Below, piece after piece: positions 21,193-31,158 of a stretch of 64,000 nucleotides of DNA. The translations under genes and the position numbers were made by a program. Where the stretch lies: NCBI RefSeq assembly GCF_900101435.1, contig NZ_FMZH01000001.1, positions 248,001 through 312,000 of the forward strand, read 5' to 3'. The stretch's first letter is position 1. Each line of letters begins with the position of its first letter. Source of the DNA: Pedobacter soli (GTDB lineage: Bacteria; Bacteroidota; Bacteroidia; Sphingobacteriales; Sphingobacteriaceae). The notes beneath the pieces are model-generated. The model had not been told where the DNA came from and ran no database searches. It saw only the letters and a list, made by a program, of their open reading frames with translations.

Positions 21193-22287
21193 TTATGCTT
21201 CGAGCCACCAGTTTTTTGTAGGCATGTACTCATTTAAAATTACTGTTTCGCCCAAAGCTGGGGTAACCAATGGTAAATTTTTAAGTGCAGCAGCTGCTAC
21301 TACCCTTTTAACGGGCTCGTTCCAGGGGTGCATGGCCAGACTGAATTTCCCCCAATGCACTGGCATTAAAACTTTTGCTTTTAAATCAATAGCAGCCTGC
21401 ACAGTATCTTCAGGAAACATGTGTATATATGGCCAATAGGCATTATACTGTCCGCATTCTAATAAAGCCAGATCAAACGGGCCATAAGTTTCGCCAATTT
21501 GTACGAAGTGAGAATCGTAGCCAGAATCGCCACCTAAGAACAATTTACAGTTCACAGTTTTCAGTACGAAGGCCGACCATAAGGTTTGATTGCGTTTAAA
21601 TTTCCTTCCTGTAAAATGCCTTGCGGGTACTGCTGTTAGTTCGAGGTTATGGAATAAAGTTGTCGATTGATCCCAGGCCAATTCGATAATTTTATCGGTG
21701 TTAATCCCCCATTTTTCTAAATGCTCACCTACACCAAGCGAAGTAACTATCGCTTTTACTCCCGGTGCAATGGTTAATATACTTTGGTAGTCTAAATGGT
21801 CGTAATGATCGTGGGTAATTACCAAAACATCGATATTTTTAAAATCAGCCGCTTTAACCACGTCTGTTCCTGGAAAAGCCTTACTGCCAATAAAGGAAAA
21901 CGGCGATGGTGCTTTGCTAAAAACCGGATCAACTAAAATTCGTAACCCATCAACTTTCATCAGGTAAGATGAATGCCCAAACCAGATAATTTCCGGTGCA
22001 CTGCTTCTGGCCTGGCTATCTAAATCCGGTTGATTAAAAGGAAGTGGTCTGTCGGGTATTTTCCCCGGATGTTTCTCGAAAAAGAAAGCCTTTAATATGG
22101 TAAAAAAACTTACACCTTCGGGTTGCATAGGTGTAACTGAAAGATTTTGTAAGGCTCCGTTACTGTAGTTGGACAATTGCTGTGTTTTGGCTAACCTTAA
22201 TCCTCTTGGTAAACGGCCAAAAACAGGTAAATTGGTGATGACCAGAAATGCAGCAACAAGAAAAAGTATTATATACAGGGCTATCAT
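21193..22287 (-). CDS. Metallo-beta-lactamase-fold hydrolase, UlaG/NAPE-PLD type
   Basis: A 364-residue protein with one N-terminal membrane anchor (MIALYIILFLVAAFLVITNL). A metallo-beta-lactamase domain follows: IIWFGHSSYLMKVDGLRILVD near 118-138, the zinc motif VITHDHYDHLDY near 171-182, FLGGDSGYD near 262 and MPVHWGKFSLAMHPW near 320. The FGHSSYL and final HWG pattern fit the group that includes bacterial UlaG-like lactonases and NAPE-type phospholipases. Substrate is unknown. I placed the start at 22287 (MIALYI) seven codons inside the longest frame. Confidence 0.8.
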   Translation of the reverse strand: MIALYIILFLVAAFLVITNLPVFGRLPRGLRLAKTQQLSNYSNGALQNLSVTPMQPEGVSFFTILKAFFFEKHPGKIPDRPLPFNQPDLDSQARSSAPEIIWFGHSSYLMKVDGLRILVDPVFSKAPSPFSFIGSKAFPGTDVVKAADFKNIDVLVITHDHYDHLDYQSILTIAPGVKAIVTSLGVGEHLEKWGINTDKIIELAWDQSTTLFHNLELTAVPARHFTGRKFKRNQTLWSAFVLKTVNCKLFLGGDSGYDSHFVQIGETYGPFDLALLECGQYNAYWPYIHMFPEDTVQAAIDLKAKVLMPVHWGKFSLAMHPWNEPVKRVVAAAALKNLPLVTPALGETVILNEYMPTKNWWLEA

Positions 22288-22380
22288 GTTATTGATTAAT
22301 TGGAGCAAATTATGAATATGCTTTTATAAAAATAACATGCTTTAGAGATATGACGTATGGATTACTTGTGCTTTAAAGCA

Positions 22381-22433: not shown

Positions 22434-23990
22434 TTATTTTAAAAGCCACATGGCCTGGTTTACATCGTCGCTACCACCATACTGGCTGGCAATCGCAGCC
22501 GAAAGGTTGGCCGAATTGTAACTCAGTTCGTTAGATGGATATAACCACCTTAATGGAAAATTAGTAGACGGCGAATTTAAATTCGTAGTCGAATTCAGTT
22601 TAAATACCGGATAACCTGTTCTCCTGTTTTCGAACCAGGCCTGGTATTTGTTTCCCTGCAAAAAGCTGGCAACGTATTTTTGTGTAATAACCTGCGCTAT
22701 TTGCTGCTCTGTTGAGCCTGTTAAAGCTACTGTAGCCGGAAAAGCATCGATGTAAGCGGCATCCATTTTCATGTTGTGGTTATAATCAGCCAAATCAGGA
22801 GTGTACTGCGCGATAAATTTCATCGAGTTGGTAATGCCATTGGCATAATAGGTTTGTGCCGGTGTACCGGTTATCCAGCCGCGAATGGTAGCTTCGGCCA
22901 GGATAAACTGCAAATCCCAATAATTAAAAACACCAACTGGCTCTGCATTTACCAGATTTACGTAACGGGCATTGATATCGGCATAATCTTTATTTACCCT
23001 TCTGGTTTGCAAACTTGAAAACGAATCGGAAGGCTCAACACCCGGATAAGCAGCAAAATCGCTTTGCGAAACCCCTGCGGTAATTTTAACCGGCGATGGT
23101 TTTGCATAATAGAAAAGTCTTTTATCGTTAGTTGCCTTTAAAGGATCGAGCAGCAGATTGGTAAGCATGGTATAATTCGATTTAACGAATGAGTTACCTG
23201 AGCCTGCAGGAACATCGCTCCATGGATAGTTCTGCCCGGCTGTTGCATTGTATGCTAATGCAAAATTATCGTTGTAATCGCGCATTAAAGGACGATTGGC
23301 TACAATATCCTTAAAACGTTCAATCACTTTCAAATCAGCATCACCTGTTTTTTTATAGAGATTGATTAATACATGCAACTCAAAACTGTTGGTTAATCTT
23401 CTCCATTTATCGGTGCTACCAGCAAAAATAGGATCGCCTTCAAAAGTTGCGCCTGAGGCAAATAAAGTGTTGGCTTGATCGAGTTCGCTTAAAATACCAA
23501 AAAAAACTGCTTTTTGACTATCGTATTTAGGTTGTAATATGGCATCAGACTCACCTTTAACCGCATCGGTATATGGAATATCGCCAACCTGCATGGTAGT
23601 CATAAAAAATTGCCAGGCCCTGATAAAATGCCCAAGTGCCTGATAAGATTTCTTTAGTGCATCGCTTGTGGCATAATTTTCCATTGGCGTAATATTGCGC
23701 AACAGGGTTATACGGCTAAAATCTGTCCGGCTAATTTTGTTGTATTGAAAATTCTCCTGCCCCTCGCCCCAGGTAAGGTATTTACCCAATAAATAAGGCT
23801 GCATAAAAGACTTGGTACTGCTGATATCCCCCCTTGTGATATTTAGAATCATCCCGGTAGCCAGCATAGCAGAGTTTACCTGTGTAGTTGCATTTGGGTT
23901 TGTATTAATATCATCAAACTTGCTGCAACCATTAGTTAATAGTGCTAATGCAGGCAGCAATAAGCTATATTTTAAAAATTTACTTTTCAT
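22434..23990 (-). CDS. SusD/RagB-family nutrient-binding outer-membrane lipoprotein
   Basis: Surface lipoprotein that forms the lid over its SusC partner and helps capture the nutrient. The 518 residues start with a lipoprotein signal, MKSKFLKYSLLLPALALLTN with Cys 22 as the lipid site, then FDDINTNPNATTQV, an opening typical of the SusD-like group 2. Other family phrases are QALGHFIRAWQFFMTTMQVG near 118 (TPR helices), GDIPYTDAVKGE, WRRLTNSFELHVLINLYKK near 205, and a late QKYVASFLQGNKYQAWFENR near 450. It lies 26 bases after susC, in one operon ending at the strong terminator. The substrate cannot be read; no carbohydrate enzyme is nearby. Confidence 0.9.
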   Translation of the reverse strand: MKSKFLKYSLLLPALALLTNGCSKFDDINTNPNATTQVNSAMLATGMILNITRGDISSTKSFMQPYLLGKYLTWGEGQENFQYNKISRTDFSRITLLRNITPMENYATSDALKKSYQALGHFIRAWQFFMTTMQVGDIPYTDAVKGESDAILQPKYDSQKAVFFGILSELDQANTLFASGATFEGDPIFAGSTDKWRRLTNSFELHVLINLYKKTGDADLKVIERFKDIVANRPLMRDYNDNFALAYNATAGQNYPWSDVPAGSGNSFVKSNYTMLTNLLLDPLKATNDKRLFYYAKPSPVKITAGVSQSDFAAYPGVEPSDSFSSLQTRRVNKDYADINARYVNLVNAEPVGVFNYWDLQFILAEATIRGWITGTPAQTYYANGITNSMKFIAQYTPDLADYNHNMKMDAAYIDAFPATVALTGSTEQQIAQVITQKYVASFLQGNKYQAWFENRRTGYPVFKLNSTTNLNSPSTNFPLRWLYPSNELSYNSANLSAAIASQYGGSDDVNQAMWLLK

Positions 23991-24016
23991 AAAATCTTCT
24001 TTAAAAACAATAATTA

Positions 24017-27000
24017 CTAGAAACCTACCTTAAGGTTAAAACCTACCATGCGCATTGATGGCGAGTTTAGGTTCTCGGTATCAACATCGGGATCTGAGTA
24101 TTTGAAATTGGTCCACATGAACAGGTTTTGGCCGGTTAAAGAGAACGATGCATTCTTTAAGCCTAGCTTACCAGCTGTTTTTGATGGTAAACGGTAGCCC
24201 AGTGAAACTTCACGCAGTTTAACAAACGATTCGTTCTGCACTCTTGCATCACCACCACGGTACCATTGTGCATAATCCTGATAGCCAATTGGCACATCAT
24301 TTACTGCGTATTTACGGGTATCGCTCGTAATCTGACCATATTTATCGTAAGTAACAGTACCTGATACTACTTTAACACCCTGGCCTACATAGTTATTCTG
24401 CCCAAGCACTACCTGATTGTAACGGTATTCGTTATCTGTTTCCGGAGCAGTACCCGAATCGAACATTTTATCGTACACGTAATTGTACATTAAGCCACCT
24501 ATGCGGCCATCAATATTAATACCCAGCGACCAGTTTTTATAAGTGAAATTATTAATGAAACCAAAACTGAAATCAGGCTCACCATAACCTAATTTTTTAA
24601 CATAATCGCTCCAAACAGGTAAACCGCTTTCGTGAATTACATTGCCCTGCGGATCTTTAACCCAGTAGTTATCGGTATACGTATCTAATCGCTCTCCTTT
24701 TTTCACCCATAAGTTATCGGCAGAGTATACCGGATCGAGGTTTACATAGTAACGGTGCTGATTAGACCAGTTGATGGTAGAATACCATTCGAAATCTTTA
24801 TTTCTGATTACAGAACCATCTACGGTAATTTCAAGACCTCTTCTTTCATAGGTTTCCTGGGTATTAACCAAAGTAGATGAGAAGCCTGATGATGCAGGAA
24901 TTGAAGTACTTACCTGCTGGTTGTAATAGTATTTATTAAAATAAGCGACATCAAAATGCAGGCGCTTCTTAAACAAATAACCCGCAGCTCCAATTTCGTA
25001 AGTTCTTTGCGCACTTGGCAGTAAGCTGTTACCCAATAACGATGAGGGATAGCTAGCAGAATTTAAAGTATTCCATGCGGCTGTTGTAGTGCCGAAAGTT
25101 CTGTTTGTAGCGTATACCCCTAAAGCTGTTTTAAATACCGCCCATGAACCGCGGATTTTGAACATATCGATTACTTTAGGCAATTTCACCAATTCTGAAA
25201 CTACGATACTCGAACCGATTGATGGATAAAAATAAGAACGTGATGCTTTTGGTTGCGCAGAGTTCCAGTCGTTTCTTCCTGTAAAATCAAGGAAAATGGC
25301 ATCGTTATAGCCAATAGAAGCCCTGCTGTACAAACTGTTGATTTGTCTGGTGCTATACCCTTGCGATACCGTTGGTGGTTCTACCGAACCGGCTAAAGAA
25401 TAAAATGTTGGTGAAATTAATCCGTTTTTAGTTGTTCCACTTAACGATTCGTCAATGAAATAGTAAACTGTTCCACCCGCCAAAGCATCGATGCTAAACT
25501 TATTCAGTTTCTTCTTATAGCTTAAAATTACATCATCATTGGTACTGAAACCCTTAGCATCCTGAATAGAATACATCCCTTTTGCATTCCATCCGCTACC
25601 GTTAACCGCCCCACCGCGTGTAGAATAGATATTAGCGGTAGGATTACGGAAGGTTGTTTTGTTATTGTAGTTATCGTAGCCTAAACGTATTAATAAATTA
25701 AAATCCTGGTTAATCTGGTAGTTTGCCGTAACATTAGCATTTACCGTATTGGTTTGGATACCATTTAATTTTTCGTTGGCGATTAAATATGGATTGTCGT
25801 ACCAGTTGGTATACATCCAGTTCTGTGTTTTATAAGGCACTTTCCAGTAATCTTTATAATCGCGGATATCGTATTCGGTACCCGTCCACATAATTAACTG
25901 GTATAAATAACCCTGGTTGTTATAACCACCACCCCAGATCTGATCAGCCCAGCGGCGACTTACGCCCATATGGCCTTCCAGCTTAAATTTATCGCTCAGC
26001 TTCATCTCTCCTGCCATGGTTAAATTTACCATGTTCAGGTTCTGGTTCGGAAACTGTCCTTTGTTATAAATATCGTTTAAGCCAATTCTGAAGCTACCTT
26101 TATCGCTGGTTTGAGCAATACTGATGTTATTATTTAAAATAATACCGGTAGACATAAAGTTCTTCAGGTTGTCTTTACCTTTCGATACCAGCGGCATATT
26201 GTCTTCAAACTGCTTGGTAACAGGATTCCAGTCTCTGGCAGTTTTACCAATATCCAGTTTAGGTCCCCAAACATAATCGTTATCAATTACGCCGTTTTGA
26301 CCCCTGCCATACGAGCTTTGCACTTCAGGTATAGCCAGAAATCCCAACGAAGCCATGGTATTACTGTTCACATCGATTGAAAAACCTTTATCAGCTGCCC
26401 CTTTTTTAGTGGTGATTAACATAACGCCACCAGCTGCCCGCGAACCATACAATGCCGAAGCAGTAGGACCTTTAAGTATATCTACACTTTCGATATCATC
26501 TGTTGGTACATCTCTTAACGACATATTACCGTAAGGCACACCATCAATAACCAGCAATGCACTTTCGCCACGTAACTCAATGGTTGGTCTGGCATTAAAT
26601 TCAGTTGAGTTTTTAATTACTAAACCCGAAACCCTGCCTGTTAATGAAGTAGCTACATCAACCCCTTTAACGGTTTGCAGTTCCTTACCGGCTACTTTTT
26701 GTACGGCATAGCCCAGCGATTTTTCTGAACGTTTAATACCCAGGGCAGTAACTACCACGTCTGTTAATTCGGTTGTGGCGGCTTGTAGTGAAATGCTATA
26801 ATCGCGCTTACTATCAATAATTATTTCTTTGGTAGTGTAACCAATAAAAGAGACAATTAATGTTGTACCCACATTGGCATTGATAGAAAAATAACCATTG
26901 GCATCAGTTCTGGTAACAGTTTTCGTTTCTTTTACCATAATACTTGCCCCAACAATTGGCAAACCATTTTCATCCAAAACTTTACCACTAATGGTTTCGA

Positions 27001-27385
27001 AAAAGGGATTGGATATCAGCTCGGTTTTTTTCCTGAGTACGATCGTTTTATCGAATATTTTGTAGCTCAACAACTGATTTTTTAAACATAAACTCAGCAC
27101 CTGTTCCAGTGGTGCATTTTTAACGTCAATACTTACATTGTGGGCATTTTGCAGTTCGAGGTTATCATAAAGAAAAACGTATTCAGTCTGTTTCTCTATC
27201 GATTTAAATATCACTTCCATCGAAACATTTTTTTGTTTCAATGTGATGTTCTGACTATAAACACTTGCGCTTACCTGGCACAGACATGCGAATAAAAATA
27301 GTGCGGTTAGCTTCATCACCAATATTAATTGTGTGGGCTTACGCCAGATTAATGCTCCGGGCGCAAAAAAATTACTAAAATTCAT
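24017..27385 (-). CDS. SusC/RagA-family TonB-dependent outer-membrane transporter with STN signalling domain
   Basis: A 1122-residue outer-membrane transporter. Order: signal region (MKLTALFLFACLCQVSASVY after about 23 residues), STN signal-transduction domain (QNITLKQKNVSMEVIFKSIE to FDKTIVLRKK, about 47-120), carboxypeptidase-like repeat (ISGKVLDENGLPIVGAS, about 133-210), TonB plug (VATSLTGRVSGLVIKNS, then LRGESALLVIDGVPYGN, VDILKGPTASALYGSRAAGG), and the long barrel ending NLKVGF. The STN domain means it also signals to the FecR/sigma pair just upstream. The frame is open 37 codons further, but ATG 27385 (MNFSNFF) is preferred because the upstream part coincides with a conserved regulatory element. 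A plus-strand sRNA-like element lies opposite its leader. Confidence 0.93.
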   Translation of the reverse strand: MNFSNFFAPGALIWRKPTQLILVMKLTALFLFACLCQVSASVYSQNITLKQKNVSMEVIFKSIEKQTEYVFLYDNLELQNAHNVSIDVKNAPLEQVLSLCLKNQLLSYKIFDKTIVLRKKTELISNPFFETISGKVLDENGLPIVGASIMVKETKTVTRTDANGYFSINANVGTTLIVSFIGYTTKEIIIDSKRDYSISLQAATTELTDVVVTALGIKRSEKSLGYAVQKVAGKELQTVKGVDVATSLTGRVSGLVIKNSTEFNARPTIELRGESALLVIDGVPYGNMSLRDVPTDDIESVDILKGPTASALYGSRAAGGVMLITTKKGAADKGFSIDVNSNTMASLGFLAIPEVQSSYGRGQNGVIDNDYVWGPKLDIGKTARDWNPVTKQFEDNMPLVSKGKDNLKNFMSTGIILNNNISIAQTSDKGSFRIGLNDIYNKGQFPNQNLNMVNLTMAGEMKLSDKFKLEGHMGVSRRWADQIWGGGYNNQGYLYQLIMWTGTEYDIRDYKDYWKVPYKTQNWMYTNWYDNPYLIANEKLNGIQTNTVNANVTANYQINQDFNLLIRLGYDNYNNKTTFRNPTANIYSTRGGAVNGSGWNAKGMYSIQDAKGFSTNDDVILSYKKKLNKFSIDALAGGTVYYFIDESLSGTTKNGLISPTFYSLAGSVEPPTVSQGYSTRQINSLYSRASIGYNDAIFLDFTGRNDWNSAQPKASRSYFYPSIGSSIVVSELVKLPKVIDMFKIRGSWAVFKTALGVYATNRTFGTTTAAWNTLNSASYPSSLLGNSLLPSAQRTYEIGAAGYLFKKRLHFDVAYFNKYYYNQQVSTSIPASSGFSSTLVNTQETYERRGLEITVDGSVIRNKDFEWYSTINWSNQHRYYVNLDPVYSADNLWVKKGERLDTYTDNYWVKDPQGNVIHESGLPVWSDYVKKLGYGEPDFSFGFINNFTYKNWSLGINIDGRIGGLMYNYVYDKMFDSGTAPETDNEYRYNQVVLGQNNYVGQGVKVVSGTVTYDKYGQITSDTRKYAVNDVPIGYQDYAQWYRGGDARVQNESFVKLREVSLGYRLPSKTAGKLGLKNASFSLTGQNLFMWTNFKYSDPDVDTENLNSPSMRMVGFNLKVGF

Positions 27386-27401
27386 GATTGAATTTGGGTT
27401 T

Positions 27402-27510
27402 AAAACATAATTGCTTAGATAACTTATTGTGTTCCTGCTGCAGATTAGCTGGCGCAGGTTGTTAATCCTCTTTCGCAAATAAATTGGTACGAACAATTGA
27501 ATTGCTTTTT
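27402..27510 (+). ncRNA. Candidate antisense small RNA opposite the susC leader (element A)
   Basis: The evidence is comparison with a second copy at 29763-29855. Element A has a near-match promoter box TGAATTTG (27389-27396, consensus TAnnTTTG), then the 18-base block GCTTAGATAACTTATTGT (27413-27430) identical in both copies. A stem CCTGC/GCAGG follows (27434-27438 with 27454-27458), then a final hairpin AATTG-loop-CAATT with loop GTACGAA (27482-27498) and CTTTTT. It runs antisense to the 5' untranslated leader of susC, ending 17 bases from the susC ATG. The layout matches cis-antisense sRNAs known at Bacteroides susC homologues (DonS type). The T-run is weaker than in copy B. The alternative is a sense leader element on the minus strand. 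Confidence 0.55.
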
Positions 27511-27587
27511 AAAGGGAATTAAAATGGAATGTCTGGAGTATTATATCATCATATGCTGCGCTTTATAGTTTGATTTGGTTTGGTTAT

Positions 27588-28742
27588 TTATTTAGGGTTT
27601 ACTGTAATCTGGTTGTATTCTACTTTGCAATGGATACCACTCCAAGCCAGCATTTCGACTAATTTTGCTATGCTTACATTTCTAGGTATTTTGCCTGAGT
27701 ATTGTTTTGCCGGAATTTTGCCATTGTAGATTACCTCGGCATCGTACCAGCGTGATACCTGGCGCATTACAGACGGGAGATCAGATTTTTCGAACTGGAA
27801 ATAACCATTCTTCCAGGCAATAACTTCAGAAAGATCTTCAATTTCATTTACTTTAATACCGTCAGATTTAGCATTCAAACTTGCCTGCTGACCTGGTTTT
27901 AAAAGCGCTTTTTTATCACCCCGTTTAATTTCTACGCTCCCCTCTAGCAAGGTGGTACGCTGATATTCTTCATCGGCATAGGTATTTACATTGAAATGCG
28001 TACCCAGTACCCTGATATCAGATTGATCGGTATGTACAATAAAAGGTTTGGTTTTATTTTTAGCGACCTCGAAATATACCTCTCCTGTAACTTCTACCCT
28101 GCGTTCGTTACCCACAAAAGCAGTAGGAAATTTAACTGAAGAGCTTGCATTTAACCATACTTCGGTGCCATCAACCAGAATTAAATGATATTGCCCTCCC
28201 CTTGGTGTACTTACGGTATTAATGGTTGCTCCTTTTGCTGTTGCATTACCCGCAAACCGGTAAAGTAACTCGCCACTTTTGGTTTTAATTACCTGAACAC
28301 CGGATTGGCTCGCCACCTGCCCGTCTGAAGTATTGTTAAGAATGATTTGAGAACCATCTGCGAGCAACAATACTGCATTATTTCCGCCCGGAACAATAGT
28401 TATTTTGTTTGCTTTAACGGAGGTGGCTGCGATCTGCGAACGATTGGTTGAATTAAAATAAATGTACGTACCCGCAATTAAAGCAATTAAAATAGCCGCA
28501 GCTTTAAAAAACAAGCCATAATTTAATCTGATGCGTTTAGCTTTAGGCGTTTTAGTATTTTGTATACTCGCAGTAACCCGGCTTAAGATCTGTTGTTTAA
28601 CTGTTGCGTCTTCCAGATTATTTTGCGTCAAACTTGCACCATCAATACGGTCGTACCACTCCTCTACCAGTTTTTTTTCTGCTGAGGTAGCGGTCTGGCG
28701 GTTATACTTTTCGATTAAATCTTTGATTTCGTTCGTATCCAA
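27588..28742 (-). CDS. FecR-family anti-sigma factor
   Basis: Inner-membrane anti-sigma/sigma regulator. The 384 residues have an N-terminal cytoplasmic sigma-binding region, one membrane helix at about 78-97 (LFFKAAAILIALIAGTYIYF), then the periplasmic FecR domain. The latter shows NTVSTPRGGQYHLILVDGTE near 175-195, VWLNASSSVKFPTAF, RRVEVTGEVYFEVAKN and IRVLGTHFNVNTY near 245. A C-terminal DUF4974-type domain ends at VEYNQITVNPK. It lies between the sigma gene and susC, the usual order, and would relay the SusC STN signal to the sigma factor. The 203 bases between it and susC hold the antisense candidate and the susC promoter. Confidence 0.9.
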   Translation of the reverse strand: MDTNEIKDLIEKYNRQTATSAEKKLVEEWYDRIDGASLTQNNLEDATVKQQILSRVTASIQNTKTPKAKRIRLNYGLFFKAAAILIALIAGTYIYFNSTNRSQIAATSVKANKITIVPGGNNAVLLLADGSQIILNNTSDGQVASQSGVQVIKTKSGELLYRFAGNATAKGATINTVSTPRGGQYHLILVDGTEVWLNASSSVKFPTAFVGNERRVEVTGEVYFEVAKNKTKPFIVHTDQSDIRVLGTHFNVNTYADEEYQRTTLLEGSVEIKRGDKKALLKPGQQASLNAKSDGIKVNEIEDLSEVIAWKNGYFQFEKSDLPSVMRQVSRWYDAEVIYNGKIPAKQYSGKIPRNVSIAKLVEMLAWSGIHCKVEYNQITVNPK

Positions 28743-28875
28743 AATAGTGGCTTTTATAGGTGTATACGGTTACCTGGCATAAAGTACCATGGCATTTTTA
28801 CTTTTTTTAAAAAATTAATTACTAAAGGCTAGCAAAACCTTTATTTATAGCGCATTGTGGTGATCAGAAAGAAAA

Positions 28876-29463
28876 TTATAAGTGTTTGGCTATAAACAGG
28901 GCCAATAGTGCCAGTGAAGAATCGTAATCCTTTACCCGAGCGCGCAAGCGCTGGTAAGCCATTTGGAGCTGATTTTTTACTGTTTGTTCGGATAAAGAAA
29001 GGTCCTGGGCAATTTGTTTGATAGAAAGCTCGTCTTCGCGTTTAAGCAGATAAATTTCTTTCATGCGCAAAGGCATCTTTTCTACTTCGGCATCAATAAT
29101 GGCTTTGAGTTCTTTTTCAAGGATTGCATTTTGCGAATGTACATCGGATGGAGCCACCTTAGTGGTTACGCTTACGGCATATTTTAAGCGTACGCTGTCT
29201 TTTTCATAAAGTTTCAGAATCTTGTTGCGAAGGATAGCAAACAAATAAGCCAGCACACTCCCTTCGGCATCCAGTAGTTCGATTTTATCCCACAAGCTTA
29301 CAAATACATCCTGAACAAGATCTTGTGCCAAATCTGTACAGTGTACCTTTTTATAAGCCTGTTTGTAAAGCGCGCTCCAATAAGCGTCGAACACCAGGTT
29401 AAATGCTTTGTTTTTGTCTAATTTGACCAGAAGAAAAAAGTTACTTTCTAATTCTTTGTACAT
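28876..29463 (-). CDS. ECF RNA polymerase sigma factor (FecI/RpoE-like)
   Basis: A 195-residue extracytoplasmic-function sigma factor. Region 2 includes FDAYWSALYKQAYKKVHCTD and LAQDLVQDVFVSLWDKIELL (about 24-65), and region 4 is PLRMKEIYLLKREDELSIKQ followed by LSEQTVKNQLQMAYQRLRAR (about 128-178), the helix-turn-helix for -35 recognition. The start at 29463 (MYKELES) is chosen because the extra 14 codons upstream do not resemble the family. With FecR and the STN-type SusC it forms a three-step surface-signalling chain that should activate the transporter operon. The C-terminal LALLALFIAKHL is usual for Bacteroidota members. Confidence 0.9.
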   Translation of the reverse strand: MYKELESNFFLLVKLDKNKAFNLVFDAYWSALYKQAYKKVHCTDLAQDLVQDVFVSLWDKIELLDAEGSVLAYLFAILRNKILKLYEKDSVRLKYAVSVTTKVAPSDVHSQNAILEKELKAIIDAEVEKMPLRMKEIYLLKREDELSIKQIAQDLSLSEQTVKNQLQMAYQRLRARVKDYDSSLALLALFIAKHL

Positions 29464-29749
29464 AAACAATCGGGGATGACGATTAAGGTTTTTAAAGTGC
29501 GCCAAAGAAATAACATCATTATTAACCTAATGTTAAATTTATTAAATTATTTCGTACAGTGCTGTTAAATTAAAAAAGTGTTTGCTAAAAAAGGACGATT
29601 GATCTAACGGAATGTGACTATTTGTTGTAAAACGGGCTTCTACTTATCCTTATTACTGTGCTGATTATCTATTTGGTTAAAAATGTTTGGCTTTGCAAGA
29701 TAGCATTTCTCACAACAAATTTACCTGTTAAAAAAACACTTAAATTTTA

Positions 29750-29757
29750 TACCTTTG
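29750..29757 (+). promoter_or_regulatory. -7 box TACCTTTG in front of element B
   Basis: TACCTTTG is an exact TAnnTTTG box and is identical to the box of the SRP RNA gene at 58098-58105. It ends 17 bases before the block shared with element A; in A the spacing is 16. No good TTTG lies 19-21 bases upstream, so strength is uncertain. Confidence 0.55.
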
Positions 29758-29762
29758 AAAAG

Positions 29763-29855
29763 GGTTAACATATAGCTTAGATAACTTATTGTTTCCTGCA
29801 TGCAGGAATAAACCCGCTTTAACGGGAAGTGGTACGAACACTTCTCGTTTTTTTT
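29763..29855 (+). ncRNA. Candidate stand-alone small RNA, paralogue of element A (element B)
   Basis: After the TACCTTTG box comes GGGTTAACATATA, then the 18-base block GCTTAGATAACTTATTGT (29775-29792, identical to A). Next are a perfect TTCCTG/CAGGAA hairpin (29793-29808), a small CCCG/CGGG stem (29813-29826), and a final hairpin GAAGTG-loop-CACTTC (29826-29844). The loop is GTACGAA, the same as in A, and a run of eight T follows: a textbook intrinsic terminator on the plus strand. One stem pair differs from A in a compensated way (G-C for T-A). No open frame of note is present. Because A is antisense to susC, the shared blocks of B are complementary to the susC leader, so B may act in trans. 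Confidence 0.6.
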
Positions 29856-30141: not shown

Positions 30142-31158
30142 ATGCAATCGAAACCAACAACCATAAAGGAAATAGCCAGAATTTTAAACATCTCACCCTC
30201 TAGTGTATCGAGAGGACTGCACGACCATCCAAGCATTGGAGCAGTAACCCGTGAGAAAATTAAACAGCTGGCCAAGTCTCTGAACTATGAGCCTAACAAT
30301 GCGGCTATACTTTTTCAAAAAGGCAAAACCTACACCATTGGTGTAATTTTACCAGAACTTTCTGAGCACTTTTTCTCCATTGCCATTTCGGCAATTGAAG
30401 ATGAAGCCATTAAGAAAAACTATACGGTAATCTTTGCCCAGTCGCACGATAACTACGAGCAGGAAGTTAAACTGGTAGAGAAAATGAAAAACCAACGGGT
30501 AGATGGTTTACTGGTATCTATCAGTAAAGACACCTCAAAGTTTGATCATTTTGAGAAATTAAACTCTTTCAACATTCCCGTAGTATTTTTTGACCGGATC
30601 CCTCCTTTCAAAAATGTACACTATGTGGCCTGCAGTCTGGAAAGCGCAACCATTAAAGCCGTAAACTACCTGCTTAAAAAAGGACACCGCAGTATTGGGA
30701 TGATTAACGGCCCCAGCACACTTTATGCCAGTGAAGAACGTAAAGACGGTTACATGCAAGCCATTACTTTTAACCGGTTAAAATTCGATCCATCTTTGGT
30801 AGTCAACTGCGATTTAACCGAAGAAGGTACCATCGAAGCTGCCGAACAATTTTTAAACCACAAAAGAAAACCTACAGCCATTGTCGCATTTAACGATTAT
30901 GTGGCCTTGTTTTTAATTAAATACTTTAAAAAGCTAAACGTAATTAACGATTTCGATGTGGTGAGTTATGCCAACCTGCCCATAATCAGTTACCTGGATA
31001 ATTCGCCGGTTGCCTCTGTAGAACAATACCCTTATTTACAAGGACAAAAAGCGGCTAATATCCTGCTTGATCTGATTCATAGTCCGGTGCCAGAAAACCA
31101 GGCTTATTATAATACCATTGTAGAATCTGACCTGATTATTAACGAAGTTAAAGAATAG
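30142..31158 (+). CDS. LacI-family transcriptional regulator
   Basis: A 338-residue DNA-binding regulator with the N-terminal helix-turn-helix TIKEIARILNISPSSVSRGL (about 6-25) and hinge KIKQLAKSLNYEPNNAA. The periplasmic-binding-protein-like sensor domain starts TIGVILPELSEHFFSIAISA near 65. Further blocks are RVDGLLVSISKDT near 118, IPVVFFDRIPPF near 143, INGPSTLYASEERKDGYMQA near 188 and PTAIVAFNDYVAL near 250. The ligand is probably a sugar or sugar phosphate. Identical CAAACGTTTG sites occur at its promoter, just after its stop codon, and upstream of the sugar transporter at 59781, which points to its regulon. Confidence 0.9.
   Translation: MQSKPTTIKEIARILNISPSSVSRGLHDHPSIGAVTREKIKQLAKSLNYEPNNAAILFQKGKTYTIGVILPELSEHFFSIAISAIEDEAIKKNYTVIFAQSHDNYEQEVKLVEKMKNQRVDGLLVSISKDTSKFDHFEKLNSFNIPVVFFDRIPPFKNVHYVACSLESATIKAVNYLLKKGHRSIGMINGPSTLYASEERKDGYMQAITFNRLKFDPSLVVNCDLTEEGTIEAAEQFLNHKRKPTAIVAFNDYVALFLIKYFKKLNVINDFDVVSYANLPIISYLDNSPVASVEQYPYLQGQKAANILLDLIHSPVPENQAYYNTIVESDLIINEVKE

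Follow-up and report, generated by a model that had tools for sequence, protein, structure and literature searches.

A putative stand-alone small-RNA gene related to a susC antisense element in Pedobacter soli, and a candidate second target for it

The stretch of the Pedobacter soli genome analysed here (64,000 nt; the window) carries two short elements that share blocks of sequence: element A, opposite the leader of a susC gene, and element B, alone before a lacI-type regulator gene. The initial annotation took A for a working cis-antisense RNA and B for its duplicate, acting in trans on susC, which raises the question of what B is, how it is related to A, and whether susC accounts for its retention. 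PULs with DonS-type RNAs can include an ECF sigma/anti-sigma pair. DonS-type cis-antisense RNAs associated with PULs in Bacteroides are 78 to 128 nt long, lie divergent to a susC homologue and are reported to lower its expression (PMC7366714, PMC10994844), and the FopS family of B. thetaiotaomicron comprises trans-acting RNAs that carry a terminator and an unpaired 5' seed and block susC translation starts, with 4 of 14 members classed as antisense (PMC11697453). The genes and elements of the locus are as follows:

21193 to 22308, minus strand: NAPE-PLD-like metallo-hydrolase gene (mbl), which lies next to B in regions lacking susCD-fecRI
22434 to 23990, minus strand: susD-like gene
24017 to 27385, minus strand: susC, with a likely start at ATG 27385 and an N-terminal extension (MNFSNFF...)
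27396 to 27512, plus strand: element A, putative relic of an ancestral antisense RNA gene and now a complement of B upstream of susC, without TAnnTTTG and with a weakened terminator (seed 27413 to 27430, loop 27485 to 27495, both plus strand)
27588 to 28742, minus strand: fecR anti-sigma gene
28876 to 29463, minus strand: ECF sigma gene of the fecI type, its ATG placed at 29463 by reading the sequence
29750 to 29855, plus strand: element B
30142 to 31158, plus strand: lacI-type regulator gene, the conserved neighbour downstream of B

Anatomy and copy number of element B

Element B has the features of a small-RNA gene in both sequence and fold, and it looks like a stand-alone gene of this kind, about 90 nt long. 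Its parts are the following, all on the plus strand:

29750 to 29757: -7 promoter box TACCTTTG, which we take to be the TAnnTTTG-type consensus of the Bacteroidota; TAnnTTTG is present in 12 of 12 B copies from two-copy genomes and 10 of 10 B-only copies
29762 to 29792: conserved 5' region of the RNA (from its presumed start), unpaired in the centroid fold
29770 to 29783: ATATAGCTTAGATA, a perfect complement of a phospholipase C leader by sequence match
29775 to 29792: seed GCTTAGATAACTTATTGT, the 18-mer shared with A
29793 to 29808: middle hairpin TTCCTGCATGCAGGAA in the fold, variable between species
29821 to 29855: terminator hairpin with the conserved loop TGGTACGAACA at 29830 to 29840, then T8 (fold and alignment)

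The predicted RNA of about 94 nt falls within the 78- to 128-nt DonS-type class, with its own predicted promoter and terminator, and folds into an unpaired 5' end, a hairpin and the terminator (z -2.8; 3 of 200 shuffles equally stable). The terminator is called at 29821 to 29849 and followed by T8 ending at 29855, in agreement with the strong terminator proposed for B, and its hairpin has 11 pairs across copies, 2 of them with both sides changed. The other likenesses reported between A and B also hold: the shared TGGTACGAACA loop, the CCTGC/GCAGG stem, the T-A to G-C change in the stem, and the identical 18-mers at 27413 to 27430 and 29775 to 29792, both on the plus strand (0.09 matches expected by chance even with 3 mismatches allowed; 1 of 100 shuffles reached two). 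Conservation in the 22 genomes with B is concentrated in the element, with a mean identity of 84% for the promoter and 5' end and 89% for the terminator versus 36% upstream and 53% downstream; in the ten genomes that have B only, its ends are 87 to 88% identical and the flanks 52 to 62%. Rfam gave no match at A or B, at gathering thresholds or with E up to 5, in a model set from which FopS may be missing.

The only significant second match to B in the whole 6.0-Mb genome is A (E 7.8e-6; the next is at about 0.1). The many scattered copies that would have pointed to a plain repeat element are thereby excluded for the P. soli genome, and FopS-type multicopy paralogues with a common seed were likewise not found, only A and B matching significantly. 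Of 145 genomes from the genus, a BLAST search with B reached 38 with E <= 0.001, that of P. soli included, and a covariance model built from 31 copies reached 50 of the 145 at E <= 0.01, recovering both copies in all 12 two-copy genomes and at most 3 matches per genome, again not the pattern of a scattered repeat. Scanning one genome per GTDB species for the exact seed plus loop pattern returned 20 stretches, all labelled Pedobacter save one MAG labelled Sphingobacteriaceae.

Element A and the susC leader

Antisense signals beside susC genes are frequent in this genome. Of its 24 FecR loci (fecR|susC junctions L097 to L120), one has no following ORF and 4 have gaps shorter than 60 nt; the 19 remaining gaps of at least 60 nt carry an antisense-strand terminator in 12 cases and a sense-strand one in none (0.1 expected per strand, from shuffles that preserve base but not dinucleotide composition). 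A -7 box on the antisense strand no more than 25 nt from the start codon, overlapping the codon or close before it, occurs at 9 of the 19 gaps; among 35 other ORFs of the window the count is 0. Both signals occur together at 7 of 19, so a DonS-like layout is common in P. soli; the A locus has neither. At six of these loci (L098, L105, L106, L111, L116, L117) hairpins on the sense strand of susC share a GTGC..AACAC-like loop, and B has a similar one, but on the antisense strand. In five cis copies from other genomes (L166 to L170) TAAATTGC replaces TAnnTTTG and a good terminator is kept; it is perhaps a variant -7 box, comparable to TAACTTGC before most phospholipase C leaders.

N-terminal extensions of about 20 to 25 residues before an MKL-type signal peptide occur in 13 of 23 ORFs after fecR (hand count), so that ATG 27385 is the most likely start of susC and the complement of the seed would lie 28 to 45 nt before it. 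When the first 32 nt of B were paired with the leaders of all 23 ORFs, the neighbouring susC was the best partner by far (-36.1 kcal/mol, 29 pairs, z -9.5 against shuffles preserving base but not dinucleotide composition; next-best leader -17.7), in line with the pairing proposed in the initial annotation. The part of its claim that made B a stand-alone relative of the susC antisense copy is likewise supported. Full pairing would need a susC leader of at least about 45 nt; a shorter one could not pair fully. The complementarity is partly inherited by descent from the common origin of A and B. B itself lies 2.3 kb from the susC leader and so is not encoded opposite it, unlike A and the single copies of nine other genomes.

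The initial annotation fared less well on A itself. The 12 two-copy genomes, which include every B genome that has susC at the locus, were read out with the loop as anchor. In the 45 nt upstream of the seed, an exact TAnnTTTG is found in 0 of 12 A copies versus 12 of 12 B copies, 10 of 10 B-only copies, 9 of 9 single cis copies and 3 of 4 solo copies. Hairpin energies in the same 12 genomes are -6.1 to -11.8 kcal/mol for A versus -15.3 to -18.2 for B, and the T runs of A (2 to 6) are mostly shorter than those of B copies (3 to 9) but overlap with them, six T being kept in G046. The "-7 box" formerly assigned to A (TGAATTTG, 16 bases of spacing) is not homologous to that of B: in intact cis copies the true box TAACTTTG, which overlaps the susC start codon on the opposite strand, lies just upstream of TGAATTTG, which falls in the start of the RNA. 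Since the promoter box is missing and the terminator weakened in 12 of 12 genomes, A is more likely a target relic than a working cis RNA; A looks like the old gene, persisting in the susC leader as a complement, whereas the working gene looks to be B. Continued expression of A as another antisense RNA, driven by a non-canonical promoter, we consider quite improbable. In 9 of 12 genomes A still has TGAATTTG; it also forms a hairpin around the loop, in some copies with a short T run, and the five cis copies L166 to L170 also do without an exact TAnnTTTG while retaining their terminator; against this stand the weaker hairpin (-6 to -12 versus -15 to -18 kcal/mol), the failure to call any terminator at A within the window, and a fold no better than shuffles (z -0.3).

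The blocks of A whose complement in the susC leader could pair with B are the parts that persist: A equals B at the first 12 seed bases in 10 of 12 genomes and at the 11-base loop in 12 of 12, with 46% identity in the middle. G085 and G046 have a degraded A seed. No compensatory seed change between A and B was found in the two-copy genomes, and in G143, G122, G106 and G034 the tail of the B seed is altered with no matching change in A. Part of the A block lies just 5' of where susC starts and may have been retained because it serves translation.

Distribution of the RNA and of the susC cassette

B stands before a lacI-type gene in 22 Pedobacter genomes, this one included. Mapping 37 regions from other genomes with the window's genes distinguished several arrangements. 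The order susD-susC-A-fecR-fecI-B-lacI is found in 12 genomes (this one and 11 others), and mbl-B-lacI, in a region without susC, susD, fecR and fecI, in 10. Six more have mbl-susD-susC-RNA-fecR-fecI...lacI with one copy only, at the position of A; a solo RNA beside mbl or lacI without susC is found in G065, G024, G078 and G116, and also in G066, whose region was added to the 37; and 6 of the mapped matches lie at other susC or fecR loci. A single cis copy between susC and fecR is present in nine genomes (6 at the same locus and 3 at other susC|fecR junctions), with a -7 box in 9 of 9 and hairpins of -13.9 to -18.2 kcal/mol. Among 17 further regions, 15 have a susC-like gene before and fecR after the RNA; of the rest, the third match of G087 has the susC-like gene only and that of G066 neither.

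On the lacI tree the 22 B genomes cluster (90/93, not starred), the 10 without the cassette at the locus are interspersed among them, and at least 4 switches between having and lacking the susC cassette fall on well-supported branches; once relatives are added, six genomes without B nest in the B group (28 genomes, 92/93), and no copy stands ahead of lacI in these six. The cassette itself (22434 to 29505; L060 to L080) is present or absent between identical flanks, and its divergence does not track that of lacI (for example, G122 versus G106), suggesting cassette exchange. The metallo-hydrolase at 21193 to 22308 matches human NAPE-PLD (4qn9, E 7e-39), which places B near one phospholipase-like gene while it is predicted to control another.

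The covariance model found no second A-like element in the ten B-only genomes, where the exact 13-base seed complement occurs at B only. Of 22 RNA-less genomes, 14 had a lacI match, and in none of these did the 420 bases before lacI contain the loop motif or seed plus loop. A laxer search of 21 relatives without the RNA, with 2 controls, gave 13 matches that were inspected: the 9 beside a susC-like gene (8 also beside fecR) were rejected as other antisense-type RNAs, and the neighbours of the other 4 match none of the window's genes.

As B is kept in ten genomes without the susC cassette at the locus, or any second A-like element, the neighbouring susC cannot be its only role, and the proposal that B targets susC is to this extent incomplete: B seems to be under selection without that gene and should have another job besides it. 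One might ask whether B is instead a leader or attenuator of the lacI-type gene rather than a free RNA. The two share orientation and a conserved order, but cis-type relatives carry the RNA between susC and fecR, away from lacI, and near relatives without B retain a AACGTTTGATTAATTT-type stretch before lacI; we regard this as very improbable. A different reading is that B acts in trans but that susC is no longer its target, A being a decaying fossil and B kept for something else such as phospholipase C. The ten genomes without the cassette at the locus, the accessory nature of the cassette and the degraded A seeds of G085 and G046 speak for it, yet A has lost its box in 12 of 12 genomes while its seed (10 of 12) and loop (12 of 12) stay identical, even in G068 and G041, whose SusC is just 50 to 51% identical to that of the window; we therefore consider it unlikely.

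A candidate second target and a proposed history

A complement of the B seed region, TATCTAAGCTATAT, recurs in 6 of 6 genomes searched, upstream of a phospholipase C gene at positions -24 to -11 from its start. The gene encodes a phosphoesterase with a Tat-like N terminus (by eye), and its best NCBIfam match is phosphocholine-specific phospholipase C, with a score under the cut-off owing to the query (P0001), the first 495 residues of a 790-aa frame. The 14-nt complement is present and unchanged in 22 of 22 B genomes, as expected of a trans-encoded sRNA whose seed would pair with the start region of a distant mRNA, and in 1 of the 6 nested relatives without B. In the 60 genomes whose phospholipase C gene and leader were read, the 13-mer precedes the gene in 22 of 22 with B, 4 of 6 with cis copies, 2 of 5 with solo copies, 0 of 3 with only other cis types and 2 of 24 without an RNA match, both of the latter nesting inside the B group. 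The site ranks 2nd of 63 start regions for pairing with B (-22.4, against a background of -9.8 +/- 2.9, lowest -19.2). In the pairing analyses of this site, too, shuffles preserved base but not dinucleotide composition.

Searches for other sites were largely empty. Searching with the 13-mer in all ten B-only genomes, and with 11-mers in five among them, gave no other start-region complement common to several genomes; AAGTTATCTAAGC occurs at A and B only in P. soli and, in 12 other genomes, only at the RNA itself plus one extra place in G065; and AGTTATCTAAG has no start-region site common to the six genomes. A second shared site, obtained with TATCTAAGCTA (L203, L204, L208, L218; 13 of 37 loci were left out of this search, being A or B themselves), was rejected for want of a visible start directly after it, and its site 18 nt before an ORF (L219) is found in G121 alone.

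How far this conservation exceeds chance and shared ancestry can be gauged on the tree. The 14-mer shows 0 changes over the 22 B genomes (tree length 1.82) and 10 column changes, with gap columns included, on the branches that the six nested B-less relatives add (0.61). Its flanks also change more in the B-less relatives (20 versus 6 in the 10 bases upstream, 12 versus 4 downstream), which makes the evidence suggestive and not proof, and the first 12 coding bases do not drift (3 versus 2). Only 5 independent contrasts are available, of which 2.8 to 3.7 agree on average and 0 disagree (lowest p 0.0625), too few for significance. Among the further cis and solo RNA genomes, 8 of 11 have sites of 12 to 14 nt; the exceptions are G116 (RNA kept, site lost), G074 (poor pairing) and G066 (RNA degraded, site absent). 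Conversely, some RNA-less genomes retain the site (G129 the 14-mer, G136 the 13-mer, G137 and G141 12 bases), and the core YTAAGCTATA precedes phospholipase C in 33 genomes, 6 of them without an RNA match. A reading in which susC is the target of B, and the match to phospholipase C reflects only chance and shared ancestry, is in our judgement rather unlikely. By two rough hand estimates, a single 14-nt complement would turn up by chance in some start region with a probability of about 0.5 to 4%, and the drifting flanks, the few contrasts and the six RNA-less genomes with the 10-base core all fit that reading; the unbroken conservation in 22 of 22 genomes, the sites in 8 of 11 further RNA genomes and the pairing rank of 2 in 63 do not. 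The phospholipase C mRNA is thus a suggestive candidate target of B.

The history that we favour, and hold to be probable, is that B derives from a DonS-like susC antisense RNA and now acts in trans on susC and phospholipase C, A being a relic. The ancestral state, still found in relatives, would have been a single RNA gene in the susC-fecR interval. Its -7 box would have overlapped the start codon of susC, and the 5' end of its RNA would have been antisense to the bases just before that codon. A second copy, B, would then have arisen alone before lacI, with A losing its promoter box and part of its terminator. Deletion of the cassette may have stranded the RNA gene beside mbl and lacI, the arrangement of G065, before a cassette re-entered with a copy of its own; plain duplication is an equally possible origin. 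The unpaired 5' end of B would pair with the susC leader from about -11 to -45, the terminator loop could add an 11-nt loop contact, and translation of susC would be blocked. The second target, the leader of the Tat-type phosphocholine phospholipase C at -24 to -11, would predate the move, and such an older target would let B outlive the susC cassette.

The ancestral cis copy in Pedobacter resembles DonS in being antisense to the susC leader, whereas B lies opposite no susC, A has no promoter box, and B persists where the susC cassette is absent. B resembles FopS in its unpaired 5' seed and terminator, and presumably in blocking susC translation, but FopS is multicopy with a common seed for several susC genes, while B is single and its best partner is the adjacent susC. 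Literature searches, with subscription papers mostly outside their scope, returned no description of the B RNA and none of a susC antisense RNA that had become trans-acting; passages of PMC9723704 contain none either.

How trans-acting RNAs acquire their targets is an open question. Here the cis start point, a two-copy intermediate with one copy disabled, and a stand-alone outcome without the original target all occur in related species. It is conceivable, at somewhat short of an even chance, that they record a cis-antisense RNA becoming a trans regulator by way of a prior distant target, a stand-alone copy, a disabled cis copy surviving as a predicted binding site, and a stand-alone copy that outlives its lost target, with all stages in living species of one genus. 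Because all stages survive in related species, the steps can be tested one by one. The findings also point to the possibility of distant targets for susC antisense RNAs in bacteria other than Bacteroides.
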